Below are positions 14,056 through 42,465 of a stretch of 64,000 nucleotides of DNA, in pieces. Source of the DNA: Microcystis wesenbergii NRERC-220 (lineage in GTDB: Bacteria > Cyanobacteriota > Cyanobacteriia > Cyanobacteriales > Microcystaceae); NCBI RefSeq assembly GCF_032027425.1, contig NZ_JAVSJA010000001.1, positions 2,865,501 to 2,929,500 of the forward strand, given 5' to 3'. Position numbers and translations under genes: made by a program. The notes beneath the pieces were generated by a model. It was given only the letters and a program-made list of their open reading frames with translations, was not told the origin of the DNA and did no database searches. Positions within the stretch are counted from its first letter, which is position 1. Each line of letters begins with the position of its first letter.

Positions 14056-14517
14056 ATGATTATTGATCCCAAAAACGTACCGGGTGATACCAAGACCTAT
14101 TATCCCGCTCCGTTTCAATATCTCGTAGCTGGTCGGATTAAGCAAGCATTAGGAAAAGCTGTCGGAATGAAAACTTTGGGGGTGACTCTAATTACATTGC
14201 CCTCCGGAGGCTGCTCGACCCTCAGACACTGGCATTTACAACAAGACGAATTTGTTTACATTATTGAGGGGGAAGTGACCTTGATCGACACTGCTGGAGA
14301 ACACCTCCTAAAGCCCGGTATGAGGGCAGGTTTCCCAGCTGGGCAAGAAGATGGACACCAGTTAATCAATAAATCGAATTCCAACGCTGTCTTACTTCAG
14401 ATCAACCATAAAACTCCTAATCAGGAAATATACTATCCTGACGACGATATATTTTTCAAAGAAGTTTCTGATGGTTGGATTGTCACTCACAAAGATGGCA
14501 CATTATGGGAAAGCTAA
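14056..14517 (+). CDS. Cupin-domain protein
   Basis: A 153-residue single-domain cupin. Motif 1 reads LRHWHLQQDEFVYIIEGEV (metal-binding His-x-His and Glu). Motif 2 is GMRAGFPAGQEDGHQLIN. The ATG at 14056 is chosen because AGGAG lies 8 bases upstream. Proteins of this size usually bind a divalent metal or a sugar/amino-acid-like ligand; the substrate cannot be read from sequence. It is the first gene of the metabolic cluster, 57 bp before a glutamine amidotransferase. Some cupins in natural-product clusters are cysteine dioxygenase-like, but no evidence picks that role. Confidence 0.75.
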   Translation: MIIDPKNVPGDTKTYYPAPFQYLVAGRIKQALGKAVGMKTLGVTLITLPSGGCSTLRHWHLQQDEFVYIIEGEVTLIDTAGEHLLKPGMRAGFPAGQEDGHQLINKSNSNAVLLQINHKTPNQEIYYPDDDIFFKEVSDGWIVTHKDGTLWES

Positions 14518-14573
14518 GATAACAGTCAAAGTTTAGAAATCTGGTTTCTATCATCCTATCCCTCTCAACAAAC

Positions 14574-15260
14574 ATGAAAAAAATTCTGTTTATCCTGCAT
14601 AAAGCAACCACAAATCCTGGACCAATTGCCGAGATTTTATCCGAGAGAGGTTATCAGATTGAGAAGCGAACTCCCAGAGAAGGAGAGCAACTTCCGTTGA
14701 CGCTGGATGACTATGAAGCCGCTATTAGTTTTGGGGGAGCCATGAGTGCTAATGATTACGAAAAATCCCCCTTTATTCGTGCTGAATTGGACTGGATTTC
14801 CACAACTGTTCTTAGTTCAAATAAGCCCTTTTTAGGCATTTGTTTGGGCGCTCAATTGTTAGCACGGGTTTTAGGAGCCACTGTAGCAAAACATCCTCAA
14901 GGTGAAGTTGAAATTGGCTATCATCTTCTGACTCCTACCCTAGCAGGACATCAATATTTTAATTCTGCGTGCTACTTCTATCATTGGAATTCGGAAGGTT
15001 TTGACATCCCATCCAGTGCAGTCAGACTTGCATCGGGCAGTATTTTTGAAAACCAAGCATTTCGCTATGGGGAAAATGCTTTTGGTGTACAATTTCATCC
15101 AGAAATGGTTCAAAGCACATTAGAACGATGGCAACGGACAGAAACCGAAGTAAAATTACCGAATGGTCATTCCTGGTCTGAGCAAATTCAAGACCATATT
15201 AAGTATGCTCCATTCGTCAAAAATTGGCTGAATGATTTTTTTTCGGGTTGGTTAGGATAA
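14574..15260 (+). CDS. Class I glutamine amidotransferase (GMP-synthase-like)
   Basis: 228 residues. The triad is visible: Cys90 in FLGICLGAQLLARVLG, His175 and Glu177 in FGVQFHPEM. A conserved ISFGGAMSAN loop (residues 51-60) matches the oxyanion region. There is no synthetase domain, so it is a stand-alone glutaminase or a gamma-glutamyl hydrolase of the type used in catabolism of gamma-glutamylated amines. It is downstream of the cupin and upstream of the amidase pair, so it may release or supply ammonia in the same pathway. Confidence 0.85.
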   Translation: MKKILFILHKATTNPGPIAEILSERGYQIEKRTPREGEQLPLTLDDYEAAISFGGAMSANDYEKSPFIRAELDWISTTVLSSNKPFLGICLGAQLLARVLGATVAKHPQGEVEIGYHLLTPTLAGHQYFNSACYFYHWNSEGFDIPSSAVRLASGSIFENQAFRYGENAFGVQFHPEMVQSTLERWQRTETEVKLPNGHSWSEQIQDHIKYAPFVKNWLNDFFSGWLG

Positions 15261-15395
15261 AGAGAGCTATCAACATTCATAAGTAGTCGTGCAAAATAAA
15301 TTTCCTAGTGAAGAAAGGCACTCATGCACTCATGCAAGAGGCAAGGGGGGGTTAGATATGTGTAATTAATTTTGCTTAGGTACTTAATTTATAAA

Positions 15396-15575
15396 ATGAA
15401 CGACATGACACCCGAAACCTTGCAACTCCTCGCTCAACGTAGTGGCGTGCAGCTTAAGCCTGAAGAAATCGAGCCATTATGTCGCGTCTATGTCAAATTA
15501 GAACAGATGAAACTCCTAATCCGCAAACCTCGCGATTACAGTAACCAATTCGCCCATAAATTTCAAGTACATTAG
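15396..15575 (+). CDS. AtzG-like small amidase subunit
   Basis: 59 residues from ATG 15396 (15405 is also possible). LLAQRSGVQLKPEEIEPLCRVY resembles the short helical AtzG/DUF4089 proteins that pair with AtzE-type amidases, as GatC pairs with GatA. It stands 77 bp before such an amidase, which supports the call. The protein would wrap the amidase and has no catalytic role of its own. Confidence 0.6.
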   Translation: MNDMTPETLQLLAQRSGVQLKPEEIEPLCRVYVKLEQMKLLIRKPRDYSNQFAHKFQVH

Positions 15576-15608
15576 ACCTAACGAGAAATCCCTGTACTCC
15601 TTGCTCAA

Positions 15609-15651: not shown

Positions 15652-15652
15652 T

Positions 15653-17050
15653 ATGAGCCAGTTGTACTACTTGAGCATTTCCGAAGCGGCTCACCTCATC
15701 TCCACCAAGCAACTGTCCCCAGTCGAGTTAACCTGCACCTTTTTGACTCGGATTGAAGCCCTCAATAATCACCTCCACGCCTTTCTTCTCGTCACCCCTG
15801 AACTAGCAATTACTGCTGCACAAAAAGCTGAAGCCGAAATTATGCGAGGGGACTACCGGGGGGCACTACACGGGATTCCCGTCGGGGTTAAAGATGTGTT
15901 TGATACAGCGGGAATTCCCACCACTGCTCAATCGCGACTGCTGCAAACTCGCATTCCTAGCCAAGATGCCACCGTTGTCCGTCGTTTGTCCGAAGCGGGA
16001 GCGATTTTGCTGGGAAAATTAGCCACGAAAGAATTTGCTGGAGGCGGGCCTTCCTTCGACCTATTTTATCCACCAGCGCGAAATCCCTGGAATTTGCATC
16101 ACGTCACGGGCGATTCCAGCACTGGTTCAGGCGCTGGGGTCGCCGCCGGATTGTGTATGGCCGCCTTGGGGAGCGATACCAGCGGCTCGATTCGAGAACC
16201 TTCTGCTTTCTGCGGTCTGGTAGGTCTCAAACCTACATACGGCCGCGTCAGTTGTGCGGGAATGATTCCCCAGTCTCCCTCCCTCGATCATGCGGGGCCG
16301 ATGACCTGGACGGTGCGGGATAATGCCTTACTGCTTCAAGCGATTGCTGGTTACGATGCCAATGATCCGGCGAGTGTCGCCGTTGCTGTCCCTGACTTCA
16401 CTGGCGATTTAGAAACCGGGTTGAAGGATCGTCGGATTGGCATTGTTCGTCATTTTTATGAGCGCGACGAACTAGCAGATATCGAGGTTTGTGCCGCCCT
16501 TGAGCAAGCTTATATTATCTTGGAAGAGTTGGGCGCAGAATTAGTAGAAATCGAATTGCCAGCTTTAGCAGAATTTATCGCTTGCTGTCAAATTATTATG
16601 CTCTCTGAAGCATTTACTATTCACGAACAAGACTTACGACAGCGACCCCATTTGTACGGGGAAGGATTACGCGGTCTTTTGTTGATGGGAGCTTTTATCA
16701 GCGCTGCTGATTATTTGCAAGCCGTCCGTCGTCGCCAGGAACTATGTTTCGCGGTAGAACAAGTAATGCAAAATGTAGATGTCTTGGTAACAGCAACAGA
16801 ATTTCGAGCCGCACCTCTTATTGTTAAAACGCGAAACCTTGATGAGGCAATTAGTGCCGATCCCTTGATGCCATTTAGTGTGACGGGTTTGCCAGCACTA
16901 GCGGTTTGTTGTGGATTTAATCAGAAGGGTTTGCCGTTGTCAATGCAAATTATTGGTAAGCCTTTTGAAGAAGCGACAGTGTTAGCAATCGGAAATGCTT
17001 ACGAACAAGCTACCCCTTGGCGCAAATTGCGTCCAGAGTTGAACATTTAA
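15653..17050 (+). CDS. AtzE-like amidase (amidase signature family)
   Basis: 465 residues, full length for the family. The Ser-cisSer-Lys triad is visible: Lys80 in PVGVKDVFDTAG, the cis-Ser region GDSSTGSGAGVAAG (residues 153-166) and Ser179 in LGSDTSGSIREPS. AtzE-type enzymes cleave carboxybiuret or related carbonyl-N bonds with a small AtzG partner, which is present just upstream. The natural substrate here is unknown. Its neighbours (glutamine amidotransferase, amino-acid importer) point to nitrogen-rich small molecules. It converges with the ABC transporter genes. Confidence 0.82.
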   Translation: MSQLYYLSISEAAHLISTKQLSPVELTCTFLTRIEALNNHLHAFLLVTPELAITAAQKAEAEIMRGDYRGALHGIPVGVKDVFDTAGIPTTAQSRLLQTRIPSQDATVVRRLSEAGAILLGKLATKEFAGGGPSFDLFYPPARNPWNLHHVTGDSSTGSGAGVAAGLCMAALGSDTSGSIREPSAFCGLVGLKPTYGRVSCAGMIPQSPSLDHAGPMTWTVRDNALLLQAIAGYDANDPASVAVAVPDFTGDLETGLKDRRIGIVRHFYERDELADIEVCAALEQAYIILEELGAELVEIELPALAEFIACCQIIMLSEAFTIHEQDLRQRPHLYGEGLRGLLLMGAFISAADYLQAVRRRQELCFAVEQVMQNVDVLVTATEFRAAPLIVKTRNLDEAISADPLMPFSVTGLPALAVCCGFNQKGLPLSMQIIGKPFEEATVLAIGNAYEQATPWRKLRPELNI

Positions 17051-17803
17051 TCATAATATTTTTTCCAAGAACTGTCGAGCGCGTTCCTGCTTGGGTTGAA
17101 TAAAAAACTCTCTTGGGGGCGAATCTTCAATCACTTTTCCCTCATCCAAAAATAAAATGCGATCAGCAACTTCCCGCGCAAAGCCCATTTCATGGGTGAC
17201 AATGATCATCGTCATTCCCGTGTGAGTCAGGGCTTTAATCACGTCTAAGACTTCTTTAATCATCTCTGGATCAAGAGCCGATGTTGGTTCGTCAAATAAC
17301 ATGATTTCCGGGTTCATGGCTAAAGAGCGGGCGATCGCAACTCGCTGCTTTTGTCCACCGGATAACTGAGCGGGATAAACCTCTATCTTATCTGCTAATC
17401 CTACTTTTTGAAGCTGATGAATGGCTTCTTGTCGCGCCACTTCCGGCGAAAGTTTTTTGACTTTCACTAAAGCATACATGACATTTTTTAAAGCGGTCAT
17501 CTGGGGGAATAAGTTAAACTGTTGAAATACCATGCCAATATTTTGGCGGATCTTGGCAATATTAATTTTTGGATCGGTAATTTCCACTCCCTTAAAATAA
17601 ATCTTTCCCGCACTGGGCATTTCCAAGAGATTTAGGCATCGTAAAAAAGTTGATTTTCCCGATCCTGAAGGTCCAATAATTGCCACGACTTCCCCAGATA
17701 AAATTTCTGTAGAAATACCTTTGATAACCTTAAGGTTTTGAAAAGATTTACAAAGATTTTCAACTTTAATAATCACACTGCGATCATGGTATAGCATTTT
17801 CAC
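17051..17803 (-). CDS. Amino-acid ABC transporter ATPase (GlnQ type)
   Basis: 250 residues. Walker A GPSGSGKST, Q-loop VFQQFNLFPQ, signature LSGGQKQRVAIARS, Walker B MLFDEPTSALDPE and switch histidine VTHEMGFARE are all intact. The order and the GlnQ-like NLFPQ segment place it with polar amino-acid importers. It lies one base after the fused binding-protein/permease gene on the same strand, so the two form a single transporter operon. Confidence 0.93.
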   Translation of the reverse strand: MKMLYHDRSVIIKVENLCKSFQNLKVIKGISTEILSGEVVAIIGPSGSGKSTFLRCLNLLEMPSAGKIYFKGVEITDPKINIAKIRQNIGMVFQQFNLFPQMTALKNVMYALVKVKKLSPEVARQEAIHQLQKVGLADKIEVYPAQLSGGQKQRVAIARSLAMNPEIMLFDEPTSALDPEMIKEVLDVIKALTHTGMTMIIVTHEMGFAREVADRILFLDEGKVIEDSPPREFFIQPKQERARQFLEKIL

Positions 17804-17804: not shown

Positions 17805-19283
17805 CTAGTTACTCCGTTGAAGTCGCTTTTCTAAAATGTGACCGCTCCAGGTTAAGAGCATCACCATCAAATAATAAATCGCCCCAGCAAATAGAAGCGG
17901 TTCAAAGTAAAGATATTTTTCAGCCCCAACAATCTGAGCGCGACGAAACAAATCAGTAACCCCAATGGTAGAGACTAAAGCTGAATTTTTTAGTAATGCG
18001 ATCGCCTCGTTAACCAGGGCGGGCAAAATATTCTTTAAAGCTTGGGGTAAAATAATATCTACCATCATCTGCGGGTAAAGCACACCTAAAGATAAAGCGG
18101 CTTCTCGTTGTCCAACATCTACAGATAAAATTCCCGCCCGAATTGTTTCTGAAATGTAAGCGCCGGAATTGAGGGTAAAAGTTGCTACTCCGGCGAATAA
18201 GGCAGAAATATTGTATCCTGTTAATTGTGGTGTTGCATAATAAATAATCGCGATTTGCAGCAGCATTGGAGTCCCGCGAAAGATCGAAGTATAAATTCGA
18301 GCAAACCAAATCAGAGGGGCTATCCGAGAAATCTTAAATAGCGCCAGGATCGTTCCCCAAATCAAGCCAAATATTGCTGATAGAGCAGTAAATTGTAAGG
18401 TTACGCCAATACCTTTAACAATAAAAGGTAGACTGGGAATAATTTGAGCAAATGAAAAAATCCCAGAAAGCTGATTTTTCTTCGGCTTTGGTGGTGGTTG
18501 ATTGAGCCATGTTTTCGCTAATTGGTCAATTTCTCCCCTTTGTTTCATTTGCTTTAAAACCGAGTTAAAGCGATCACGCAGTGGCGAGCCTTTCGGAAAA
18601 GCGATGGCATATCCCAAAGGTTCTAAATTAGGAATAATGTGATATTCTAATTGGGGATTTTGTGCGATAAACCCTGGCGCAACTGTACTTTCTACTAAAG
18701 CGGCATCTAAACGTCCTATCTTTATTTCTTCGATAAGATCGCTCATTTTTGTGCGGCTTTCAAGAATTACACCAGGAATTTTTTTTGCTCTCTTTTCTTG
18801 GACAGAAGCTAAAGCAACCCCCACTTTCTTACCATGCAAATCTTGGTCAGTTTTGAGGCCACTTCCCTTGCGAGAAACAATCGTACTTTTGGTTTCGTAA
18901 TACAAATCAGAAAAATCTACATTTTGCTTGCGTTGTTCAGTGGGAACCATACTAGCGACGGAAAAATCAGCCCGACGAGACTGCAAAGCCGGAATAATCC
19001 CATTAAAATCTGTATCGAGAATTTCAATTTTATAACCGAGATAATTGGTAATTCTCTTGGCTAGATCGATATTAAAACCAATAATTTCGTCGCTTCCTGT
19101 TGCTGTATCTCGATAATTAAAGGGAGGATACTCTGATGAAGTAGCCAGGATTAATGCCGGGCGAACCTCTGTTTTAGCTATCACAATTCCTGGCTGATTC
19201 TGTCCATTTCTTAACAGTAATATGAGCGTCAATATGACACAAAAAAAAAGAAAAAATACTCTTTTATGTTGGTTTTTATACAA
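17805..19283 (-). CDS. Fused amino-acid binding protein and permease
   Basis: 492 residues. An N-terminal membrane anchor or signal (VFFLFFCVILTLILLL) leads to a family 3 solute-binding domain (about 45-265: EYPPFNYRD, FNIDLAKRI, DFSVASMVP). A linker then leads to a HisM/GlnP-type permease (about 280-490) with FRGTPMLLQ and the EAA loop EAALSLGVLYPQMMVDIILP. Such fusions are known for GlnH-GlnP-like importers. The gene abuts the ATPase downstream and the epimerase-like gene upstream (no gap). Confidence 0.92.
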   Translation of the reverse strand: MYKNQHKRVFFLFFCVILTLILLLRNGQNQPGIVIAKTEVRPALILATSSEYPPFNYRDTATGSDEIIGFNIDLAKRITNYLGYKIEILDTDFNGIIPALQSRRADFSVASMVPTEQRKQNVDFSDLYYETKSTIVSRKGSGLKTDQDLHGKKVGVALASVQEKRAKKIPGVILESRTKMSDLIEEIKIGRLDAALVESTVAPGFIAQNPQLEYHIIPNLEPLGYAIAFPKGSPLRDRFNSVLKQMKQRGEIDQLAKTWLNQPPPKPKKNQLSGIFSFAQIIPSLPFIVKGIGVTLQFTALSAIFGLIWGTILALFKISRIAPLIWFARIYTSIFRGTPMLLQIAIIYYATPQLTGYNISALFAGVATFTLNSGAYISETIRAGILSVDVGQREAALSLGVLYPQMMVDIILPQALKNILPALVNEAIALLKNSALVSTIGVTDLFRRAQIVGAEKYLYFEPLLFAGAIYYLMVMLLTWSGHILEKRLQRSN

Positions 19284-20168
19284 TTAGATATACTCCACCT
19301 TTAATTCTAATTCTTCTAACAGTGACCGAGCAATTGGTTGCCAATTCAAAATTTGTCGGACATGAGTATTAGAAAGCTGTTGATCAAGTACCAGCCCATC
19401 TGCTAAGAGTCCAATTTGCTGGCGTGCTGCTTCCAGAGATTGTCCTTGAATTCGACCAGAAATACCGGCTGCTTGACTGGCTAAACGAGCAATTTCTCGT
19501 AAAGACAAAGAACATTCATCTACAACATTAAAAACCATTCCCCCTGGCGATTGTTCAATCACTTTAACATAACAACGCGCCAAATCTTCAACATGAACCA
19601 AAGCCCAGTGATTGTCTCCTGTCCCGACAAACTGCACTACCCCATTGCTTCTACCGCCGGCCACCAGTTGTCCCACCAGCCCTCCACCACGACCATAGAC
19701 CATCCCGGGACGCAAAACAACCGACCGCACCTGACGCTCTTTCGCCGCCAAAACCTGCTGTTCAATCTCTGAACGCCAAGCCATCAAAGGAATAGGATTA
19801 AGCGGCGGTTGTTCGTTAACATCTGAGTTAATATTGCCCAAAATCCAGGTTCCACTGGTGTAGATAAATGCCTTTCCTGTTCCACTCAAAGCTGACAACA
19901 TTTCCGTAACAGCGATGCGATCGCAATTCGGCATTTTCTCATCTTTCGTCGCTGCTGTATGAATCACTCCATCCACCTGACACAGCGCCTCTATCCACTT
20001 CAGCGGTTGGTGTAAATCTCCCCGCACTACTTCAATCCCAACAGCCTCTAAACTTTGAGCCGCTTGCTCTGAGCGAGCTAAACCGATAACCTGATGTCCG
20101 ACTGTTTGTAGGGACTCAGCTACGGTACTACCAATGTATCCGGTTGCTCCGGTGAGAAAAACTTTCAT
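19284..20168 (-). CDS. NAD-dependent epimerase-like SDR protein
   Basis: 294 residues. The nucleotide loop GATGYIG (residues 7-13) and GLARS follow the extended/atypical SDR pattern. DGVIHTAATKDEK and FIYTSGTWILG occupy the active-site strand. The usual catalytic Tyr-x-x-x-Lys is not at the standard place (Trp follows TSGT), as in atypical SDR groups, so true epimerase activity is doubtful. It is the first gene of a leftward operon with the ABC transporter. Its start is 40 bp from the divergent dehydrogenase at 20209, so the short gap must hold both promoters. Confidence 0.8.
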   Translation of the reverse strand: MKVFLTGATGYIGSTVAESLQTVGHQVIGLARSEQAAQSLEAVGIEVVRGDLHQPLKWIEALCQVDGVIHTAATKDEKMPNCDRIAVTEMLSALSGTGKAFIYTSGTWILGNINSDVNEQPPLNPIPLMAWRSEIEQQVLAAKERQVRSVVLRPGMVYGRGGGLVGQLVAGGRSNGVVQFVGTGDNHWALVHVEDLARCYVKVIEQSPGGMVFNVVDECSLSLREIARLASQAAGISGRIQGQSLEAARQQIGLLADGLVLDQQLSNTHVRQILNWQPIARSLLEELELKVEYI

Positions 20169-20208: not shown

Positions 20209-21324
20209 TTGGCAACGATCGCAATTTTTGGAGTAGGGGATATCGGTCAGTCGATTCTACGGGGTCTGGTGACCTATCCAGAAGTGAGCCGGATTTGGGC
20301 TTTCAGTCTGAATGTTCAGCGTCTTGAGTCTATAGTAGCCGATATCGCCACAATAGCCTATTATCGCGATCGCCACCTAGACATCCAGTTTCAATCCCTC
20401 GATTTACGCAATCTCCCTCTGCTCTCGGAAACTTTAGCCAAGAGCCGACCTGATGTAATCGTCAATACTACTACCCTACGAGCCTGGTGGGTGCCAATGC
20501 CATTTCCACCGGAAATCCAGCGTCAGTTACAACTAGAAGCACGCCAGGGTCCTTGGCTACCGCTTCATCTCACCTTGACCCTCAACCTGATGAAAGCGAG
20601 ACAGCAAGTACTCCCCAATACCCCGGTAGTGAATCTTGCTCTTCCCGATCTCGTCAATCCCGTTTTAAATCAACTCAATTTAGCTCCTACCTGTGGCGCA
20701 GGAAACTCTGAGTTTCTGCACGCAGCGATCGCCAATATCGTCTCTCGTCGTTTGGGAATTCCGCCCAAAGAAATCATCGTAGAAATGGTCGCCCATCATT
20801 TTCACTGTAATTATTTTTGGGGGAATTTAGCAGCGGTTGAATCTTTAGAAAATCGACCCTATTGGCTCAGGGTTTTTCATGGCGGAACCGATATTACGCC
20901 CGAACTAAATCCCCATACCTTGTTACAGTTGGCGGGACAACAACTTCCCCGCGGCCGAGTGATGGCGGTTCGGACAGGAGAATCGGCGGTGAAAAATATT
21001 ATGCGTTTAGTGAGGAATGATCCGACCCGAACTCATGTTTGCAGTCCCCTGGGTCATAGTGGGGGGTATGATGTTCGCTTGAGGTGCGCTTACCCTGAAG
21101 TTCTTTACCCACGCCATTTGTCTCTAGAAGCAGCCCAACAGATTGAAGCGCAAGGACTGATTGGCGATGGGATTGAATCGATTGAAGCGGACGGTGAAGT
21201 GATTTTTACTGACCAAGCAAGTGCTGCGATGAACCGAATTTTGGGATACGATTGTCCCAGACTTAATCCGGCGGATGCTCCGGCGCGGGCTGTTGAGTTG
21301 ATCGAACGTTTAGAAGCTGTTTGA
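20209..21324 (+). CDS. Rossmann-fold NAD(P) oxidoreductase, saccharopine-DH-like
   Basis: 371 residues starting with TTG after a GGGAG ribosome site. The N terminus has FGVGDIGQSILRGLV (GxGxxG loop) and PDVIVNTTTLRAW, as in saccharopine- and opine-dehydrogenase-like proteins. The C-terminal half is large (AHHFHCNYFWGN, HVCSPLGHSGGYDVRL) and not familiar to me. It could reduce an imine or carbonyl on an amino-acid-like substrate, but this is inference. Divergent from the transporter operon, it ends just before an IS5 remnant. Confidence 0.6.
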   Translation: MATIAIFGVGDIGQSILRGLVTYPEVSRIWAFSLNVQRLESIVADIATIAYYRDRHLDIQFQSLDLRNLPLLSETLAKSRPDVIVNTTTLRAWWVPMPFPPEIQRQLQLEARQGPWLPLHLTLTLNLMKARQQVLPNTPVVNLALPDLVNPVLNQLNLAPTCGAGNSEFLHAAIANIVSRRLGIPPKEIIVEMVAHHFHCNYFWGNLAAVESLENRPYWLRVFHGGTDITPELNPHTLLQLAGQQLPRGRVMAVRTGESAVKNIMRLVRNDPTRTHVCSPLGHSGGYDVRLRCAYPEVLYPRHLSLEAAQQIEAQGLIGDGIESIEADGEVIFTDQASAAMNRILGYDCPRLNPADAPARAVELIERLEAV

Positions 21325-31166: not shown

Positions 31167-31179
31167 AAATCTAAATAAT

Positions 31180-31184
31180 GGAAG
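31180..31184 (+). promoter_or_regulatory. Shine-Dalgarno site deciding the nitrile-hydratase start
   Basis: GGAAG lies 8 bases before ATG 31193, which begins MRGHHDIGG, the usual start of nitrile hydratase beta subunits. The upstream ATG at 31178 overlaps this site and is less likely. Confidence 0.6.
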
Positions 31185-31192
31185 AGTTTACC

Positions 31193-33950: not shown

Positions 33951-34883
33951 ATGGAAATTTGTGAAAAAAATCCTCGAATTTGGGAACTAAACTCAGAGCA
34001 ACGTCAACTTCTTCCATCTGATTTAGATATCGAATTCTATCGACAACATGGTTGGTATATCTCGAAACCGCTATTTTCAGAATCAGAAATTGATCGAGCT
34101 AAGGAAGGAATTGAACGCTTTTATCAAGGTCATCGCGATAGTCAATTACCCGTCGCGTTGCCAGATTTTGAGGATTGGACACCGAATCAGGGAGACGGGC
34201 TAAGAATTAATGAATTTCTGGTTCAGCGAAACCGACAAATTCATCAATTATCCCAGAATTATCTAATTGGAGCCATTGCTGCTTTACTAACAGGTAGCCC
34301 CCAAATTCGCTTATTCAGCAGTAGCCTGTATTATAAACCACCGAAGACTCAATCGGTGGAAACTACCATCGGTTGGCATCATGATCGTGGGTATTGGAAA
34401 ACTTGCAGGTCAGATAATATGATTAGTGCGTGGATTCCTCTACACGATTGTGATGAAAGTATGGGAACTTTGACGATGATTGATGGTAGTCATTTGTGGA
34501 CTGAACCTAATGGAATCTCACAAGGGTTTTCCCATTTTGCTAAATCTGATCGAAACGAACAAGAGAATATTTTGCTGGTTCATGCTCAAGGAAGACCAAT
34601 TGATAAAGTCCCCATGAATCTCAAAAAGGGACAAGTCAGTTTTCATCATTGTTTGACTTTTCATGGCAGTCCTTCTAATACTAGCAGTCAGCCGAGAATT
34701 GCGATTGCTTTCCATCTACAAGATAAAGACAATCAATATCGTCTTCACCGCCAAGAAAACGGTAATATTCACGTTCACAATAATGATCGTCTCTGTCGTA
34801 AATTAGCAGACGGAACACCTGATTACACTGATCCAGTTTTTTGTCCTATTTTATGGGAAGGTAATCCCCGAATATTTAAATAG
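33951..34883 (+). CDS. Phytanoyl-CoA dioxygenase-family oxygenase
   Basis: 310 residues from ATG 33951 (upstream codons fall in repeat sequence). FYRQHGWYISKPLFSESEID is the usual N terminus. WHHDRGYW holds His and Asp of the iron site. LTFHGSPSNTSSQPRIAIAF holds the distal His and the 2-oxoglutarate Arg. IPLHDCDESMGTLTMIDGSH is the family core. It is an Fe(II)/2-oxoglutarate enzyme acting on a small molecule. It is the second oxygenase of the cluster. Confidence 0.87.
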   Translation: MEICEKNPRIWELNSEQRQLLPSDLDIEFYRQHGWYISKPLFSESEIDRAKEGIERFYQGHRDSQLPVALPDFEDWTPNQGDGLRINEFLVQRNRQIHQLSQNYLIGAIAALLTGSPQIRLFSSSLYYKPPKTQSVETTIGWHHDRGYWKTCRSDNMISAWIPLHDCDESMGTLTMIDGSHLWTEPNGISQGFSHFAKSDRNEQENILLVHAQGRPIDKVPMNLKKGQVSFHHCLTFHGSPSNTSSQPRIAIAFHLQDKDNQYRLHRQENGNIHVHNNDRLCRKLADGTPDYTDPVFCPILWEGNPRIFK

Positions 34884-35081
34884 GGTTTGCTGAAAAATTC
34901 AATTGGCTGGTGATGGGGTGGGAGAAGGATTTTAACAAGTGGCTTAAGCCACTTGTCCCTGTACCTCATACAACTGCATACCGCTATATTTTGAGATTTC
35001 CTATCCCCCCCCTACTTGCTAGTCATTGTGATAAATGATACAATTGCCATTGAAATTTCTTCAATAGAAAGATTAAAATTA

Positions 35082-36728
35082 ATGAATCATCCCATTTTAG
35101 CCATCGAAATTGGTGCTGGCGATCTCAATTTAATCAATAACTGGGTTTCTCAAGGAAACCTGAAAAATTTAGCCAAGTTGTTAGAAGGAGGAGCGTCAGG
35201 AACACTAGAAAATATCGACTACTATACAACCGAAACAAAATGGACAATCTTTTTAACTGGTTGTATGCCGAAAACTACTGGATATTGGGGTCCTTTAAAG
35301 TTTCATGACGGTACATACGAAATGCAACGTCAGCAGCAGTCATATAACTTTACTCAATATCCACCATTCTACAGTTTAGCCAAAGAATCTCAAATCGCTG
35401 TTTTTGATATACCACAAACGATTGTATCGGATCAAGTTCAAGGCGTACAGGTTTTGGGGTGGGGGTGTCATGCTCCTTATGTAGTCAATCAATCCCAACC
35501 ACCTCAATTATTAGAAGACTTAGTGAGCAAATTCGGTGAGCATCCGACTTTCCGGCGGGATTTTATCAATAACTGGTGGGACCCAAAAATAGTTACCAAG
35601 TTTTGTAACGATCTTAAAACGGGAATTTCTCGTCGAACCGATATTTGTAAATTTTTACTAAAACAACAAAATTGGGACTTATTTTTAACTGGATTTAGTG
35701 AACCTCATCCTGCTGGTCATCACTATTATCATCTCAGTCAACCCGATCATCCTTTATACCCGTATAAAGATCAAAATGGAGCGGTTGACGATTTGATGCT
35801 CGAACTCTACGAAGCGACCGATTCTGCGATTGGAGAACTAATCGAAGCTGCACCTAAAGATGCTCATATTCTGATTTATTCCCTACAAGGAATGACAAAT
35901 AACTCCACTGATTTACCCAGTATGGTGTTTTTACCAGAGTTATTGTATCGGTTTAGTTTTCCTGGGAAAGTCGCCCTCGCAGCGGGGGAAAAAGATCAGC
36001 TTTCTCCACCTATATTCCCTCATTTGGATCGCAAAACTTGGGCGAGTGAAGTTTGGAAATTGAAGTGGGATCGTAATCCAATTCAAAGGTTTTTAAGAGG
36101 GCGAGTATCTGACGAATTTCAAGAGGCAATCGATCAATGGTTGAGCGCAAAAAATTCACCCGACTTAGATTCTCCTTTTCAATTATACAAAGAAAAGTCT
36201 TTGTACGCTTGGCAACCTACCATGTGGTATAAACCTTTTTGGTCAAAAATGAAAGCATTTGCGCTCCCGACATTTGCGGTAGAAGGATTTATTCGGATTA
36301 ATTTAAAAGATCGAGAACCTAACGGTATTGTTGAACCTGAAAATTATGATAAACTGTGTGAAGAATTAACTCAGCATCTCTATGATCTTAAAGATGCTCG
36401 AACGGGAAAATCAGTGATTAAAAAAGTTGTTCGGACTCGAGAAAATATTCTCAATCAAGACCCAGATTTGCCTAATGCTGATCTCGTAGTGGTAATGGCA
36501 GATTGTCCCAGTGATGTAGTTGACAGTCCCCAATTTGGGCGCATTGGTCCAGTTCCCTATCATCGGACTGGTGGTCATCCACCGGAAGGATTTTTGATTG
36601 CGAAAGGGTTAGGAATTGCGCCAAATTCTCAACTTCCAAAGGGTCATGTCCTAGATTTACCACCAACAATTTTAAAGCTGATGGGAGTACCATCTCCTGA
36701 ATATTTTGAAGGTAAGTCACTCTTGTGA
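35082..36728 (+). CDS. Type I phosphodiesterase/nucleotide-pyrophosphatase-like protein
   Basis: 548 residues from ATG 35082. The alkaline-phosphatase-superfamily core is visible: ILAIEIGAGDLNL (Asp14 as first metal ligand), TKWTIFLTGCMPKTTGYWG (Thr55 as nucleophile), GFSEPHPAGHHYYHL, and HRTGGHPPEGFLIAKGLGI near the C terminus. Where most relatives have Ser-Asp-His-Gly this protein has YSLQGM, so two metal ligands seem replaced; either the site is altered or this is a subfamily with other ligands. If active it would hydrolyse a phospho- or pyrophosphate diester. It lies between the oxygenase and the PLP enzyme on the same strand. Confidence 0.75.
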   Translation: MNHPILAIEIGAGDLNLINNWVSQGNLKNLAKLLEGGASGTLENIDYYTTETKWTIFLTGCMPKTTGYWGPLKFHDGTYEMQRQQQSYNFTQYPPFYSLAKESQIAVFDIPQTIVSDQVQGVQVLGWGCHAPYVVNQSQPPQLLEDLVSKFGEHPTFRRDFINNWWDPKIVTKFCNDLKTGISRRTDICKFLLKQQNWDLFLTGFSEPHPAGHHYYHLSQPDHPLYPYKDQNGAVDDLMLELYEATDSAIGELIEAAPKDAHILIYSLQGMTNNSTDLPSMVFLPELLYRFSFPGKVALAAGEKDQLSPPIFPHLDRKTWASEVWKLKWDRNPIQRFLRGRVSDEFQEAIDQWLSAKNSPDLDSPFQLYKEKSLYAWQPTMWYKPFWSKMKAFALPTFAVEGFIRINLKDREPNGIVEPENYDKLCEELTQHLYDLKDARTGKSVIKKVVRTRENILNQDPDLPNADLVVVMADCPSDVVDSPQFGRIGPVPYHRTGGHPPEGFLIAKGLGIAPNSQLPKGHVLDLPPTILKLMGVPSPEYFEGKSLL

Positions 36729-36800
36729 TTAGACTTTGGGAAAAAAATTGCCTCGCAGTTTTATTGTGTCAAACTATTGCAATTAATAACTTTAAAAAGC

Positions 36801-38141
36801 ATGAAAATCTCGAAAAATTTACCCAATCTTGGTGGTAGTATCTCCCCCAATTTGCTTGAAGGAGAAAAGATAGGTCAAATCGAAAGAGTGCATTTAGTCG
36901 CCAATCGAATTATGCGATTAAATGCCATTGAAAAAGGAATTGAATTGATTGACATGGGAACTGACTACTATTACCCATTTTATCATGAATACGAACCAAC
37001 CAAACAAGCTTTACAAGCGTTAGGAAGCTACGCTGATGAAGTATTACACTATCCATCTTCTTACGGTTTAATTTCCCTGCGTAGTTCTTTTCAAGACTTT
37101 ATGTCAACTCAGTTCAATGTCGAGCTAGATTTGCATCAAGAAATTATGATTACCACTGGAGCATCTCAAGTTTTTGATGCTCTATCTCGGTCTTTTGCTG
37201 GAACTTATGTGCTGATTCCAGAGTTTACGTTATCCACAGTAGCAATTATTGCTGGTGGTAATGGGGCAAAATTAATCCGTTTACCAGTCGGAGAATGTGG
37301 ATTTTTCGATTTGATTGAAGCAGAAAAGATCGTCAATAATTTGCCTGAAAAATCTATCCGTTTTCTGTATTTAAATTCTCCCTGTAATCCCAACGGAAAA
37401 GTAGCTAAATGGGAGTATCTAAATGAGTTAGTACAATTTGCCTTAAGACAGGAAATTCTAATTTTACACGACATGGATTCGTGGTACACTACTCACAATA
37501 ATGAAACGGATTTGGTTAATATTTTAGAAATTCCCCAAGCAAAACGATGTAGCCTCACAGTATTATCCCTGAGTAAAGAGTTTGGATTACCCGGACTACG
37601 AATTGGTTTGGTGGCCGGAAATGATTATGCAATCAATGTAATTCGGATGCACAATTCAACTTTTTCTGTGATGATTCCAGAGGTTTGTCAGTATGCAGCA
37701 AAAGCAGCCTTAGACAGTTTTAATGCGGAACACCAAAAACCAGAAATCAATGAATATGTCGGCTATTTAATTAAAAAATCTATCGCCGGATGGCAAAGCA
37801 TGGGATGGCCGCCAGAAGCGATTCACTCTCCAGATGGAGGATTTAAATATTTACTCTCAGTCCCACCGCATCTACAATCTCAAGGGGAATTTACCGCAGT
37901 TGAATTATTTGATTATTACGTCCTCAGTCGCGCTTATGTTAAATTATCAACTATTCGCTCTTTTAATCCAGAAAGACAACAATATATCCGGCTAATAGTC
38001 ATGCAAAATGAAGCACTATTAGAAGAAGCTTTCAGAAGAATGAAAGAGATTGGTGTAGATTACCATTCGATGCAATTACCAGATTCTCTTGGTCAAGAAT
38101 ATGCTACTCTAATTAAAGAAAATATCGGCGGAGATTTTTAG
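36801..38141 (+). CDS. Fold-type I PLP enzyme, class I/II aminotransferase-like
   Basis: 446 residues from ATG 36801. MITTGASQVFDALSRSF (phosphate cup), YLNSPCNPNGKV, LHDMDSW (pyridine-binding Asp about 224) and SLSKEFGLPGLRIG (Schiff-base Lys about 259) give the class I/II fold. The Tyr that usually follows the Asp by three residues is not there. It may be an ordinary aminotransferase, or a SAM- or amino-acid-using lyase/annulase: ACC synthase and SbzP of altemicidin biosynthesis share this fold. It is the last gene of the rightward series and faces the asparagine synthetase gene. Confidence 0.78.
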   Translation: MKISKNLPNLGGSISPNLLEGEKIGQIERVHLVANRIMRLNAIEKGIELIDMGTDYYYPFYHEYEPTKQALQALGSYADEVLHYPSSYGLISLRSSFQDFMSTQFNVELDLHQEIMITTGASQVFDALSRSFAGTYVLIPEFTLSTVAIIAGGNGAKLIRLPVGECGFFDLIEAEKIVNNLPEKSIRFLYLNSPCNPNGKVAKWEYLNELVQFALRQEILILHDMDSWYTTHNNETDLVNILEIPQAKRCSLTVLSLSKEFGLPGLRIGLVAGNDYAINVIRMHNSTFSVMIPEVCQYAAKAALDSFNAEHQKPEINEYVGYLIKKSIAGWQSMGWPPEAIHSPDGGFKYLLSVPPHLQSQGEFTAVELFDYYVLSRAYVKLSTIRSFNPERQQYIRLIVMQNEALLEEAFRRMKEIGVDYHSMQLPDSLGQEYATLIKENIGGDF

Positions 38142-38187: not shown

Positions 38188-40104
38188 TTAAGTTAGTCCA
38201 AAACGTTCTTGAAGACAACAAGCACTGAGCATTTTCATCAATGTAACATCTATTGACGCTTGCTGGCTTTCGCTCATTTCTGGTAGTTGATCAAGTAATT
38301 CAATCACCGCTTTATGATTATAAAAAGGAACAGCAGCCATTGCCGAACTACGAAGAGTATCTTGCATAAATTGATGCAAGGGTTGCTGGGGTTGAAAACT
38401 TGAAGGTGGAACCAGAAAAGGATGCTTCTGTCGAGAATAAATGGTTTCTGTAATAAAAGGACGGGTAGCTTCTCGCAAGATATATTTTTCGGTCAACCCA
38501 TTAATTTTTAAAGTAATTGGTAGCCGACCAATAAATTCTACAACTTGATGATCCAAAAAAGGTAAGCGTCCTTCCAAAGAATGAGCCATCTCTACTCCAT
38601 CCCCAAGCATTCTCAAAATATAATTAGGTAAGTGAGTTTTTGACCATAAATACAAAGATTGATTAACTGGTTCTCGTTGTTGAAGTTGTCCGACAAAATC
38701 GATATTATTTAAAAATAAACGATAAGCATCTCGCTGCCTAAAGCGATTACGAAACGCGGCGGAATAAACTGGAACAGATTTGAGTCGGACTCTTCTTTCC
38801 ATCCAAGCTGGGGTGAATCCTAAACTATTAGAAATACTTGCCAGATATTGAGTTTCTACCGCGCCAAATTGACCAGGAGAAATTTTATTTTTTTGTTGTA
38901 ATTCTTCTAAAAGGTTTTGTCTTCTCGACTCTGCTAACCCTTGAGTTACATGACGCAACATATCTACACAAAAATGAATATAGCCACCGAAAATTTCGTC
39001 TGCACCTTCTCCAGTCAGTACAACTTTATATCCGGCATTTCTGGCGGCACGACTCAAAATATACTTGGCGGTTGTGTGCGCGTTATAACAAAGCATTTCA
39101 CCCTGACAAACGGCATCAGCAAAATTCTCGGCTAAGTCAGATTGAGTAATAGGAACAACTTGGAGATTCGCTCCTGCGTATTGAGCAGTTTCAGCAGCAA
39201 TGGCTTGTTCATTATATTCAGTGCGCTCAAAACTAAGGGTAAATGCCTGAATCGATTGAGTAGTATAACGAGATGCCATGCCTAATATAGCTGATGAATC
39301 TAAACCACCACTGAGATAACAGCCAACCGGAACATCTGCTCTTAAACGAAGTCGAATTGCTTCATCAAGAATTTCTCGCAGTTCTTCCACATATTCTTGT
39401 GCTGAAATTTGCGGTTTTTTGGTCTCAATTTGGGGATAATCAAAATCCCAGTAACGATGTAGTTGGATGCCTGCGTCTGAAGCAAGCATAAAATAGCCTG
39501 GTGGCACTTGATAAATATTAGAAAATAGGGTATTGTGCGGTGGTAAAACACCACTGTCAAGCAAATGAAATGATTCCCAATCCCAAGCAGCAGGGACTCC
39601 GGCTGCTAGGATTGCTTTGATTTCAGAGGCGAGGTAAAGAGTGTCTTGATATATGGTATAATATAGGGGTTTGATGCCAAATCGATCGCGGGCAGCAAAT
39701 ACAAGTTGGTTGCGTTCGTCCCACAAAACAAAGGCAAATTCACCCCGCAAATAAGATAAACACTGGGTGCCAAAACGATCATAAAGATGCAAAGCAATTT
39801 CACTATCAGACTTGGTTTGTAGCGAATATCCCCATTGCTTTAATTGTCGCTGAATTCGTTCAAAATCATAAAATTCTCCATTGGCAATAATTCGTAAACT
39901 ACCATCGCGATTAGCAATCGGTTGATTGCCAGAATTAAGATCAATAATGCTGAGCCGAGTATGTCCCAAGCCAATCCGAAAATTGTCAGCAATCCAGATA
40001 CTTTGTTGATCGGGTCCGCGATGTTTTAGTGACAATACTGATCGCCTAAGCTGAGATTCTGCAATTATCCCTTTGAAACCAAATAAGGCAACAATACCAC
40101 ACAT
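38188..40104 (-). CDS. asnB: Asparagine synthetase B, glutamine-hydrolysing
   Basis: 638 residues when started at ATG 40104 so that Cys is residue 2 (MCGIVALFG), as the N-terminal nucleophile requires; the upstream in-frame ATG at 40143 would bury it. HTRLSIID, NGEFYD and KSDSEIA keep the glutaminase Arg, Asn/Glu and Asp. The PP-loop SGGLDSS, GEGADEIFGGY and KQHPFLVPPS give a complete synthetase half. It should convert a carboxylate to an amide using glutamine and ATP. It is closely related to the glutaminase-dead paralogue at 29247 and lies 5 bp after nadB on the same strand. Confidence 0.92.
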   Translation of the reverse strand: MCGIVALFGFKGIIAESQLRRSVLSLKHRGPDQQSIWIADNFRIGLGHTRLSIIDLNSGNQPIANRDGSLRIIANGEFYDFERIQRQLKQWGYSLQTKSDSEIALHLYDRFGTQCLSYLRGEFAFVLWDERNQLVFAARDRFGIKPLYYTIYQDTLYLASEIKAILAAGVPAAWDWESFHLLDSGVLPPHNTLFSNIYQVPPGYFMLASDAGIQLHRYWDFDYPQIETKKPQISAQEYVEELREILDEAIRLRLRADVPVGCYLSGGLDSSAILGMASRYTTQSIQAFTLSFERTEYNEQAIAAETAQYAGANLQVVPITQSDLAENFADAVCQGEMLCYNAHTTAKYILSRAARNAGYKVVLTGEGADEIFGGYIHFCVDMLRHVTQGLAESRRQNLLEELQQKNKISPGQFGAVETQYLASISNSLGFTPAWMERRVRLKSVPVYSAAFRNRFRQRDAYRLFLNNIDFVGQLQQREPVNQSLYLWSKTHLPNYILRMLGDGVEMAHSLEGRLPFLDHQVVEFIGRLPITLKINGLTEKYILREATRPFITETIYSRQKHPFLVPPSSFQPQQPLHQFMQDTLRSSAMAAVPFYNHKAVIELLDQLPEMSESQQASIDVTLMKMLSACCLQERFGLT

Positions 40105-40109
40105 AAATT

Positions 40110-41825
40110 TTAATCTTTTTTGGTAGGAACTGAAGTACAGCAATCACCTTTGATGACAGTATGAACTTGCCACTCAGAGTTATTTTCTGGATAGTCTAAG
40201 CGGTAATGTCCACCCCGGCTTTCGGTGCGAAATGTAGCACTTTGGAGAAGCAAATAGGCGACATCTAATAAGTTCAAGATTGCCGCTAAAGACTTTAAGT
40301 ATTCGGCAACTTCTCGGGAGGTAAATTGAACACATTGTTGAGGCTTTAGGTTTAGCAAATATTGACTAATTTTCCAGTTTTTTAACTCATATTGCCAAGT
40401 TTTGACAGTTGCCATCGCAGATTCCATAACGGTTTGGGTACGACAAATCCCAGCACTATTCCACATTAAAGCCGCTAAATCCTGTCGGTAGGTAGCAAGG
40501 CGATCAGCAGATGGAGCAACCCGATCGTTAATTTCAATTTGCTCTAGGAATACTGGTTCTGGGGATGAGGGGAAATTTTGATTTATTTCCTCAGACAAAT
40601 CGTCTTCAATTTTAGCTAATTGGGAAGCAAAAACCAAGCATTCTAACAAGGAATTACTCGCCAACCGATTAGCGCCGTGAACGCCCGTACTTGCCGTTTC
40701 CCCAATGGCATATAACCCAGAAATTGAGGTACGATTCATCACATCACAGGCAATGCCTCCCATCCAATAATGGGCAGCGGGGGCAATCGGTATCAACTCG
40801 TTAAAAACATCAATTCCCCATTGCTGACACACTTGAATAATATTGGGAAACCGATGGCGAATTTTGTTAGGTTCTATCGGTCGCATATCTAAATAAACAT
40901 GGGCATTGGCAGGATTTTCGGCAGTTTTTTGCAAGTGAAAATATATCGCCCGACTAACCACATCTCGATGCGCTAATTCTCCAGAAGGGTGATAATCAAA
41001 GGCAAAGCGTCGCCCCTCCTGATCGACTAAATGAGCCCCCTCTCCCCGTACTGCTTCACTAATTAAGAAGTGAGGTGCCCCCGGTTTCATTAATGCAGTG
41101 GGATGGAATTGGAAAAACTCCAGATCTCGAACTATTGCCCCGGCCCGCCAAGCGATCGCTATTCCATCTCCGGTACTCCCGACTGGGTTGGTGGTTTTGG
41201 CAAAAATCTGACCACCGCCACCCGTCGCCAACACCACCGCTTTTGCTTGAATCCAAGAAATTTGGTTTTGGGAGAGAATACTTATTCCCTGACAGTGGCG
41301 GGTTTGGGCGTTCAACCACAAACTCAGGGTAACGGCTTGGGAGAGAACTTGAATGTTGGGGCGTTCCAACACCGCCGCAACCAATACGTCCACAATTGCC
41401 CGCCCAGTAGTATCACGAGAGTGCAAAACTCGAGGATGAGAATGGGCCGCTTCCAAGGTGGTGGCTAAATTTTCCCCCTGGCGGTCAAAATTAACCCCCA
41501 GGTTCAGCAAAAAGGCGATCGCTTCAGTAGCATGATTCACCAAAAACTCTACCGCTTCGGGATCGCATAATCCCACTCCCGCTTTTAATGTATCTTCCAA
41601 ATGTTGGTTGGGCGTATCTGGAGGATAGATAGCGGCAGCAATTCCCCCCTGCGCCCACGGACTAGAACCACTTTTAAGGTCATCTTTTGTTACCAATCCC
41701 ACCCGTAAATGAGAGGGAATGCAAAGGCTAGCATAAAGTCCGGCAGCGCCACTACCGACCACCAAAACATCAAATTGATTCGGTACTTCTTTGATGGAGC
41801 TTGGGGAGTTGGGGGTTTGTTTCAT
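40110..41825 (-). CDS. nadB: L-aspartate oxidase
   Basis: 571 residues from ATG 41825; a longer frame to 41909 lacks support. FAD loop VVGSGAAGLYASL, GLCDPEAVEFLVNHA, VLATGGGGQIFAKTTNPVGS, AHYWMGGIACD and GANRLASNSLLECLVFA are the NadB/SdhA-type signatures. NadB oxidises L-aspartate to iminoaspartate, the first step of quinolinate and NAD synthesis. It is co-directional with asnB (5-bp gap). It is in the island, so it may be an extra copy serving the cluster or the cell's only copy; the window cannot decide. Confidence 0.9.
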   Translation of the reverse strand: MKQTPNSPSSIKEVPNQFDVLVVGSGAAGLYASLCIPSHLRVGLVTKDDLKSGSSPWAQGGIAAAIYPPDTPNQHLEDTLKAGVGLCDPEAVEFLVNHATEAIAFLLNLGVNFDRQGENLATTLEAAHSHPRVLHSRDTTGRAIVDVLVAAVLERPNIQVLSQAVTLSLWLNAQTRHCQGISILSQNQISWIQAKAVVLATGGGGQIFAKTTNPVGSTGDGIAIAWRAGAIVRDLEFFQFHPTALMKPGAPHFLISEAVRGEGAHLVDQEGRRFAFDYHPSGELAHRDVVSRAIYFHLQKTAENPANAHVYLDMRPIEPNKIRHRFPNIIQVCQQWGIDVFNELIPIAPAAHYWMGGIACDVMNRTSISGLYAIGETASTGVHGANRLASNSLLECLVFASQLAKIEDDLSEEINQNFPSSPEPVFLEQIEINDRVAPSADRLATYRQDLAALMWNSAGICRTQTVMESAMATVKTWQYELKNWKISQYLLNLKPQQCVQFTSREVAEYLKSLAAILNLLDVAYLLLQSATFRTESRGGHYRLDYPENNSEWQVHTVIKGDCCTSVPTKKD

Positions 41826-42177
41826 GTTGTATTTAGCTTCAGATTTATATATATAGCGGTTTTCACAGAAGTGAGTCCCGATTGAAACTCTGAAACGCCT
41901 ATCTATCAAGGGATTTACTATACCTTATTAGACTGAAACCCGCTATAGTATAATTTACAGTATATCACCAAATAAACTCTTAAGCAATAGCAATGGGGCT
42001 CTTCTCGTTTCTGTGTGGAAGGAAGAAGAATAGGGATAATTTTCCAGAAGTATAATCTTCAAAGCCTTGCCTAGCAAGACCCCTACGAATTGTGCGCACT
42101 GATTATAATAGAAAGTCGAGAAGACCGGCAATGTTTGTGAGTCGGGTGTTACTGAATTAACTCAACGATTTAAGTTT
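41826..42177. other. Upstream region of nadB with inverted repeat
   Basis: Contains TATAGCGGTTTTCAC (about 41855) and GACTGAAACCCGCTATA (about 41931) as distant inverted arms, and AT-rich TATAGTATAATTTACAGTAT (about 41944), a possible promoter region. No gene seen. Confidence 0.45.
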
Positions 42178-42465
42178 ATGCGCGAAAGTGTAACATCCTA
42201 TCGACAGCAATTTCTCGGTTTGGAGAAAAAAGCTTACTTTAATTATGGGGGACAAGGACTGCTTCCCCGAACTGCTCTAGATGCTATCTATTGCTGCTAT
42301 CAAAAGTTACAGGAAGATGATCCTTTTTCTCGTCGAATCAATAATGATAAAACAGGTTTTTTGACGGAATTATCTCAGGCAACCCGTACTATTATTGCTT
42401 CCGAATTAGGGGTGACACCGGAGACGATTACTTTAACGGAAAATGTAACCGTTGGTTGTAATATT
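42178..42465 (+). pseudogene. Class V aminotransferase N-terminal fragment
   Basis: Opens at ATG 42178 with KKAYFNYGGQGLLPRTALDA, then ATRTIIASELGVTPETITLT and ENVTVGCNI, the usual start of cysteine-desulfurase-like class V PLP enzymes. After 96 codons it runs into the outer IS5 element (GACTTGTTG), which cuts it off before the active-site Lys. The rest of the gene is not found on the far side at 44648, so it was lost. Confidence 0.83.

Follow-up and report, generated by a model that had tools for sequence, protein, structure and literature searches.

The analysed stretch of the Microcystis wesenbergii NRERC-220 genome, here called the window, comprises 64,000 nucleotides (C1:2865501-2929500 of a 4.68 Mb genome in two contigs) and carries about 20 enzyme genes of unrelated families (Table 1). 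An initial annotation, made from the sequence alone, had read them as a possible small-molecule gene cluster inside an acquired island, without nonribosomal peptide synthetase (NRPS) or polyketide synthase (PKS) genes. Scans with Pfam and NCBIfam recovered the claimed families where they had been placed, with three labels softened. The assignments as cupin, GATase, amidase, ATP-binding cassette (ABC) protein, epimerase or short-chain dehydrogenase/reductase (SDR), Old Yellow Enzyme (OYE), methyltransferase (MT), TauD, PhyH, Phosphodiest (here the phosphodiesterase-like protein, PDE), GST_N_2 (glutathione S-transferase-like, GST), Sulfotransfer_3 and Aminotran_1_2 (the pyridoxal phosphate (PLP) enzyme) all stood. 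NadB, both AsnB proteins, the nitrile hydratase alpha subunit and the NADAR protein even exceed curated NCBIfam cut-offs, and the split of the nitrile hydratase was borne out by Pfam, which places its beta-N and beta-C domains on two separate short open reading frames (ORFs). The three softened labels are AtzE, AtzG and that of u371: the amidase reaches 289.6 bits against a cut-off of 425.75 for AtzE, and neither the small ORF, in its Planktothrix form, nor u371 matches a Pfam or NCBIfam family.

The most important observation concerning these genes is their joint occurrence on plasmids of Planktothrix agardhii. In tblastn searches, nitrile hydratase alpha (88.6% identity) and AsnB1 (90.9%) matched one plasmid of strain PCC7805, and further genes of the set were found on a second plasmid, p1 of strain No.365. 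Overall, 19 of 23 window features recur as an open and nearly full-length gene on one or both of the two plasmids, at 75-91% protein identity; this does not hold for the cupin, the sulfotransferase, the truncated class-V gene and the ABC ATPase, the last of which had no match. Since 19 of the 23 features recur there, we conclude with high confidence that the gene set, judged by sequence comparison, represents one inherited unit and no chance pile-up. The initial annotation had named homologues that are scattered and never found together as the outcome that would speak against a common set; instead, the genes stand together on both plasmids.

Plasmid p1 of PCC7805 carries the cupin gene (97 of 155 amino acids), the GATase gene, the small ORF and the genes for the amidase, the ABC protein, the SDR, u371, the OYE, the MT, TauD, NADAR, GST, AsnB1, the three nitrile hydratase pieces, PhyH, the PLP enzyme and a class-V PLP protein of 392 amino acids. 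The genes for AsnB2, NadB and PDE are split over frames in this plasmid, and the sulfotransferase is reduced to a match of 28 amino acids. Plasmid p1 of No.365 carries NADAR, the small ORF, the amidase, the ABC protein, the SDR, u371, the OYE, the PLP enzyme, AsnB2, NadB, PDE and PhyH, and the genes for PDE, NadB and AsnB2 abut there. Gene order is conserved within blocks, and the blocks are shuffled between the window and PCC7805.

Table 1. Features of the gene set and of its flank in the window; percentages are identities to the P. agardhii copies.
Feature	Position	Strand	Evidence
Cupin protein	14050..14517	+	Pfam Cupin_2; 96% over 97/155 aa to PCC7805
Class-I glutamine amidotransferase-like protein	14574..15260	+	Pfam GATase; PCC7805 89%, dN/dS 0.12
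Small ORF preceding amidase (earlier "AtzG")	15372..15575	+	probable ATG near 15402; PCC7805 84% over 58 aa, No.365 72%
Amidase-signature amidase	15653..17050	+	Pfam Amidase; 86% to each Planktothrix copy
ABC transporter ATPase	17051..17803	-	Pfam ABC_tran; unmatched in both Planktothrix stretches compared
Polar amino-acid ABC transporter, binding protein-permease fusion	17805..19283	-	SBP_bac_3 and BPD_transp_1; 85-86% to Planktothrix
NAD-dependent epimerase/SDR	19284..20168	-	Pfam Epimerase; 83% to Planktothrix
u371	20209..21324	+	no Pfam/NCBIfam family; GxGxxG-like N-terminus by eye; 85% in both plasmids
Old Yellow Enzyme-type alkene reductase (OYE)	22038..23159	+	Oxidored_FMN; 89% to Planktothrix
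S-adenosylmethionine methyltransferase (MT)	25886..26668	+	Methyltransf_11; 75-78% to PCC7805
TauD-type 2-oxoglutarate oxygenase	26701..27714	+	Pfam TauD; 81% to PCC7805
NADAR N-glycosidase-like protein	28097..28549	+	TIGR02464 152.8 bits, cut-off 73.7; PCC7805 86%, No.365 82%
Glutathione S-transferase-like protein (GST)	28552..29205	+	GST_N_2; 86% to Planktothrix
AsnB1, glutaminase half without key residues	29247..31166	+	TIGR01536 370.5 bits, cut-off 267.1; dN/dS 0.075
Nitrile hydratase beta, N-terminal part	31178..31513	+	NHase_beta_N; 83% to Planktothrix
Nitrile hydratase beta, C-terminal part	31648..31932	+	NHase_beta_C; 80% to Planktothrix
Nitrile hydratase alpha, VCTLCSC motif	31937..32569	+	TIGR01323 255.8 bits, cut-off 249.85; 89% to Planktothrix
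Sulfotransferase	32581..33720	+	Sulfotransfer_3; PCC7805 remnant is a 28-aa match
PhyH-type 2-oxoglutarate oxygenase	33873..34883	+	Pfam PhyH; HxD and distal His in alignment; 83% in both plasmids
Alkaline-phosphatase-family phosphodiesterase-like protein (PDE)	35016..36728	+	Phosphodiest; probable ATG near 35082; 88% to No.365
PLP enzyme, class I/II aminotransferase family	36777..38141	+	Aminotran_1_2; 84% in both plasmids
AsnB2, glutaminase residues intact	38188..40143	-	TIGR01536 429.2 bits; probable ATG near 40104; 90% to No.365
Second L-aspartate oxidase (NadB)	40110..41909	-	TIGR00551 621.2 bits, cut-off 452.75; 86% to No.365
Truncated class-V PLP gene	42178..42480	+	79% to first 100/392 aa of PCC7805 gene (Aminotran_5)
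Flank: plasmid-type ParA gene region	44931..46162	-	AAA_31; ParA family

The core operon that had been proposed for positions 28097-38141 does not describe what the copies share, since the genes common to all three reach 15372-23159 and AsnB2/NadB. Present in every copy are the amidase, the ABC binding-permease protein, the SDR, u371, the OYE, PhyH, the PLP enzyme, NADAR, AsnB2, NadB and PDE (the last three interrupted in PCC7805). The close spacing of 2-60 bp claimed for many genes holds for six of the nine gaps within 28097-38141 (2, 41, 11, 4, 11 and 48 bp), but not for the other three (134, 152 and 132 bp). It is worth considering whether mobile elements have joined two pathways, one comprising the amidase, ABC, SDR, u371, OYE, PLP, AsnB2, NadB, PDE and PhyH genes (module A) and the other the MT, TauD, NADAR, GST, AsnB1, nitrile hydratase and sulfotransferase genes (module B). 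The stretch read from No.365 indeed has module A with one NADAR gene and lacks MT, TauD, GST, AsnB1 and nitrile hydratase, and the rearrangement of blocks between the window and PCC7805 would fit as well. However, modules A and B co-travel in two hosts at similar identity, and the 61% identity between AsnB1 and AsnB2 hints at their duplication within the lineage of the cluster, so that we regard two joined pathways as unlikely.

Ratios of nonsynonymous to synonymous substitution rates (dN/dS) were calculated with our own Nei-Gojobori-type script for 20 window-Planktothrix pairs, which represent 19 genes with NADAR compared twice. They range from 0.075 to 0.29 in all 20 pairs, with dS values of 0.36-1.04 and no internal stop, and thus show the set to be under selection. 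The NADAR gene of No.365, perhaps a different copy, is the outlier with a dS of 1.04. These values bear on the question whether the set is a decaying remnant that is non-functional in every known copy. The class-V PLP gene is truncated in the window, where its DNA similarity to Planktothrix ends at 42465, PCC7805 has the three interrupted genes and the sulfotransferase stub, and No.365 is without one module. Nevertheless, decay in all copies seems improbable to us in view of the 20 pairs without internal stop and with dN/dS well below 1, even though these values mostly record selection before the recent breaks.

For an estimate of how the set reached its hosts, NadB served as the host control, and five genomes of genus g34 were taken as Planktothrix, an assignment we infer because all five carry a Planktothrix plasmid transposase at 92-99%. 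The window genome possesses a separate chromosomal NadB (C1:3127379), which is 59-60% identical to that of the g34 genomes with saturated dS in all five comparisons. The cluster NadB, in contrast, is 86% identical between the hosts with a dS of 0.35, and in three comparisons it shares 59% with the chromosomal NadB of both hosts. Because the cluster gene differs so much less between the hosts than their chromosomal NadB, it has been transferred horizontally. A DNA search with window positions 35016-41909 (PDE, PLP enzyme, AsnB2, NadB) gave one match in each of the five g34 genomes, at 67-68% and within NadB only. Positions 44922-46579 are 91.3% identical to a Microcystis aeruginosa NIES-2481 plasmid at a ParA family protein, and insertion sequences in and beside the cluster match copies on M. 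aeruginosa plasmids at 97-99%. In view of the adjoining ParA-type region, with its 91% match to a Microcystis plasmid, the island looks plasmid-derived in the window genome, too.

That the island was acquired, as initially claimed, is supported by the absence of the PLP enzyme and u371 from a genome of the same species (G413) and from all ten other genomes of the genus listed. With a cut-off of E ≤ 1e-40, only the window genome contained the PLP enzyme, i.e. one of 386 genomes of the phylum and one of 388 of the order (the two samples overlap), and u371 was present in one of 50 family genomes, again the window genome. PCC7805 provided the single match to TauD in 72,556 plasmid records (E ≤ 1e-5). 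A DNA comparison of window positions 1-20000 with four genomes of the genus gave no match within 14000-20000 among the matches listed. Among viral contigs, 139 pattern matches included no relative of the PLP enzyme, and scans of GTDB contigs, which rest on short exact peptides so that relatives can escape, yielded no match for PDE and a single locus for the PLP enzyme (L084).

This locus, in a genome bin (JAQCIJ010000021.1; 9185-11311), encodes a protein of 708 amino acids that combines PhyH (residues 36-247) with Aminotran_1_2 (residues 324-676), and over 437 residues it shares 53% identity with the window PLP enzyme. The fusion of relatives of both proteins is a sign that such an oxygenase and such a PLP enzyme may act consecutively. 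The neighbouring genes look housekeeping-like by eye, and the next gene, which overlaps, encodes a HAD hydrolase with a longer C-terminal region. A 2-oxoglutarate oxygenase alongside a class I/II-type PLP enzyme is also known from the pairs VioC/VioD and OrfP/OrfR. However, the window oxygenase belongs to the PhyH family, and the Ser and Glu residues of the cyclases VioD, OrfR and GntC are not found at the ungapped positions. Models of aminotransferases and of GntC both match the window PLP enzyme, in all cases far below the NCBIfam cut-offs shown, and GntC ranks fourth among them (107.6 bits, cut-off 415). In the PLP-dependent arginine cyclases, two consecutive Ser residues and a Glu lie on the N-terminal side of the PLP Lys, at a conserved distance from it, according to the accessible part of PMC10367076. 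By an ungapped count, Lys267 and Asp234 of the window enzyme are 33 residues apart as in GntC, but Glu-Pro occupies positions 73-74 and Leu position 57, and a Ser-Ser pair stands at 94-95, 21 residues off the cyclase position. An arginine-cyclase function is thus not supported by this residue count.

There are also marked differences between the two AsnB proteins. AsnB1 begins with MSGIV in the window and in PCC7805, with Cys2 replaced by Ser, while the five other proteins aligned begin with MCGIV. Its SD[ST]E motif, whose Asp we take to be a residue of the glutamine site, reads SSSE in the window and ASSE in PCC7805 and is kept in all five others. AsnB2, which starts with MCGIV and reaches 429.2 bits with TIGR01536 (cut-off 267.1), and three other cyanobacterial plasmid AsnB proteins retain both Cys and Asp. 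AsnB1 is therefore probably unable to use glutamine; since the residues are lost in both hosts and a dN/dS of 0.075 indicates constraint, it would seem to be repurposed rather than dead. The identity between AsnB1 and AsnB2 (61%) slightly exceeds that between AsnB1 and the next-best plasmid AsnB (58.7%), which suggests that the duplication took place inside the cluster lineage. NadB scores above the cut-offs of TIGR00551 (621.2 against 452.75 bits) and PRK07395 (923.5 against 723 bits). Aspartate or asparagine is a likely feedstock, as an aspartate oxidase is part of the cluster and both AsnB homologues found in the window genome at E ≤ 1e-20 lie in it.

The PDE-like protein and the nitrile hydratase were both considered as markers of the cluster and found unsuitable. 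PDE matches occur in 28 of 386 genomes at E ≤ 0.001, and relatives are present without the rest of the cluster. At 43-51% identity over nearly the whole protein, they were found at 16 places in 11 genomes besides the window genome. In 18 PDE neighbourhoods (L032-L049; 15 of them hold all 16 close places), matches to further cluster genes at E ≤ 1e-6 were limited to two SDRs (27%) and a single generic ABC ATPase (34%). Nitrile hydratase alpha was matched in 12 of 386 genomes at E ≤ 0.001, in seven of the 12 only by pieces of at most 70 amino acids, and four neighbourhoods contained no specific cluster gene but only generic ABC and amidase matches. Because their relatives are scattered without the other cluster genes, both proteins look as if recruited from widespread stock.

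The relatives of PDE appear to reside in a different context. One neighbourhood scanned, L032, has flippase, glycosyltransferase and Poly_export genes, and the glycosyltransferase family seen there is present in 12 of 15 such loci, which are thus probable exopolysaccharide loci. In the window protein EIGAGD and LQGM replace GLDxxD and xHGM, and No.365 shows both changes as well, so that the cluster copies keep neither motif. The Asp of GLDxxD and the His of xHGM are presumably metal ligands in alkaline phosphatase (AlkP) family phosphodiesterases. The close relatives, in contrast, keep GLDxxD in 15 of 16 cases (one has Glu for the first Asp) and xHGM in all 16. The Asp before the His (DHG), which we take to belong to the canonical metal-site motif of the family, is gone in 15 of the 16. 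Since 15 relatives lack this Asp and one has the Glu substitution, the metal site of this family was, as far as these residues tell, already drifting and non-canonical before the cluster copies arose. Despite the two lost motifs, the PDE-like protein has a dN/dS of 0.11.

The nitrile hydratase consists of three pieces, alpha with the motif VCTLCSC and beta as separate N- and C-terminal polypeptides. A split beta subunit was also found in genome G014, where no other window gene was matched within 20 kb. The toyocamycin nitrile hydratase ToyJKL (alpha of 21.2 kDa, other subunits of 10 and 11.4 kDa) is likewise made of three short polypeptides and encoded in a biosynthetic cluster, as stated in the available parts of PMC8574189 and PMC12648386; unlike there, no deazapurine-type genes occur among the window cluster ORFs scanned. 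Because it is seen in ToyJKL and in G014, the three-piece form alone is not new. In genome G170 (L092:5081-14789), two nitrile hydratase alpha genes lie about 7 kb apart, with a metal-insertion GTPase-like gene (by eye) and an ABC ATPase gene between them.

Taken together, we consider it probable, at roughly 60%, that the window contains a single mobile biosynthetic cluster, moved on plasmids between bloom-forming cyanobacteria and located here in the main contig, which would produce, with neither NRPS nor PKS, a small and polar compound derived from an amino acid. Of the small-molecule cluster proposed initially, the one shared set thus stands and the proposed core does not; the biosynthetic role, in which our confidence is moderate, we infer from the gene content. 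Our confidence in the identity of the product, an amino-acid-derived, probably aspartate-derived polar compound, is low. In such a pathway L-aspartate or asparagine would serve as feedstock, PhyH would hydroxylate an amino-acid intermediate, and the PLP enzyme would then transaminate, eliminate or replace at the hydroxylated centre, with the redox state set by NadB, the SDR, u371 and the OYE. AsnB2 could make an amide using glutamine. The second module (MT, TauD, AsnB1, nitrile hydratase, sulfotransferase) would decorate the scaffold; AsnB1 might couple a carboxylate with an amine or with free ammonia, and the three-part nitrile hydratase might convert a nitrile to a carboxamide.

Several points weigh against a biosynthetic cluster of this kind. 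No copy is whole, given the breaks in the window and in PCC7805 described above, and most of the second module is missing in No.365; both plasmids stem from a single Planktothrix species and do not count as independent evidence. In the L084 fusion, the PhyH half shares just 29% identity with the window PhyH (171 amino acids aligned), and no further cluster gene lies in the 18 kb of that locus. Among the families found in the cluster no nitrile-making enzyme was recognised, nor was an exporter. Finally, a catabolic island could equally well contain a binding-protein ABC transporter and, as hydrolases, amidase, GATase and nitrile hydratase, and relatives of u371 sit in catabolic-looking regions of proteobacterial plasmids.

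The last point leads to a nitrogen-scavenging island, in which the ABC transporter would import a nitrile or amide compound, nitrile hydratase, amidase and GATase would free ammonia, and the redox enzymes would process the carbon. The binding protein-permease is of the polar amino-acid type, and the three hydrolytic enzymes are present in one place. Moreover, u371 aligns at 25-32% identity with five alphaproteobacterial plasmid proteins, and in all four rhizobial plasmid loci read (L079-L082) u371-like genes have HAD and alanine racemase-like genes as neighbours, joined in three loci by a DMT transporter and in two by flavin adenine dinucleotide (FAD) oxidoreductases. However, the two AsnB-type synthetases, which consume ATP, are building enzymes, as are the sulfotransferase and the methyltransferase, and No.365 keeps AsnB2 and NadB but is without nitrile hydratase and GATase. 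We therefore consider a catabolic role unlikely.

The biosynthetic cluster could go further and define a new structural class, namely an aspartate-derived carboxamide or nitrile amino acid that is methylated and sulfated and whose genes spread on plasmids between Microcystis and Planktothrix. AsnB1 would then be an amine-joining or nitrile/amide-forming ligase and the metal-less AlkP-family protein non-hydrolytic. This is a tentative proposal, and we think it rather doubtful that all of it applies.

That plasmids of cyanobacteria can carry biosynthetic clusters is known, according to excerpts of PMC8600333. For Planktothrix strains including PCC7805 and No365, the accessible part of PMC9366434 reports only the microginin (mic) cluster on plasmids. 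Like mic, the present genes are plasmid-borne biosynthetic candidates from the same strain collection, but mic is of the NRPS/PKS type, and the p1 plasmids of No.365 and PCC7805 carry the present set, which goes unreported in that part of PMC9366434. Within the open-access texts searched, taken without supplements, we found no publication describing these genes in combination, whether in connection with Microcystis, with Planktothrix or with biosynthetic clusters, and hence no known cluster that the set would match, and it is not described in the accessible parts of PMC6784222, PMC4558948, PMC11356792 and PMC8600333. It is the gene set, not the plasmid location, that looks new. This is of practical interest: Microcystis and Planktothrix blooms are monitored for known NRPS/PKS toxins and peptides, and a conserved, horizontally moving set without such genes may escape surveys based on NRPS/PKS genes. 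A metabolite search can start from defined strains and genes, and AsnB1 and the AlkP-family protein are two altered families whose chemistry is open to direct assay.

Some further observations concern single genes and the surroundings. A defence function of the NADAR protein was considered and rejected on its NCBIfam scores, in a comparison that did not extend to PADLOC, as it reaches 80.1 bits with the anti-phage model (cut-off 240) against 152.8 bits with the riboflavin-type model (cut-off 73.7). Scans of the window gave no tRNA and no Rfam match reaching the gathering score. The GC content is about 42%, which fits the value of 42.5% given for Microcystis in the available part of PMC8600333. 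On the No.365 plasmid, genes annotated as sterol desaturase, SxtJ-family, DUF5989 and SGNH hydrolase adjoin the cluster (L078:23894-26727). In the window, positions 1-13200 form a dense nest of insertion sequences, several of which recur in large numbers in congeneric genomes, among the matches listed. Transposase genes also lie between and beside the cluster blocks, at 23978-24871 (ISMae4) and 42810-43799 (fragments like Planktothrix and Rippkaea transposases), where the gene order departs from that in Planktothrix. A transposase-like ORF recognised by eye (21645-21965) separates u371 from the OYE gene, and these two genes are adjacent in Planktothrix.

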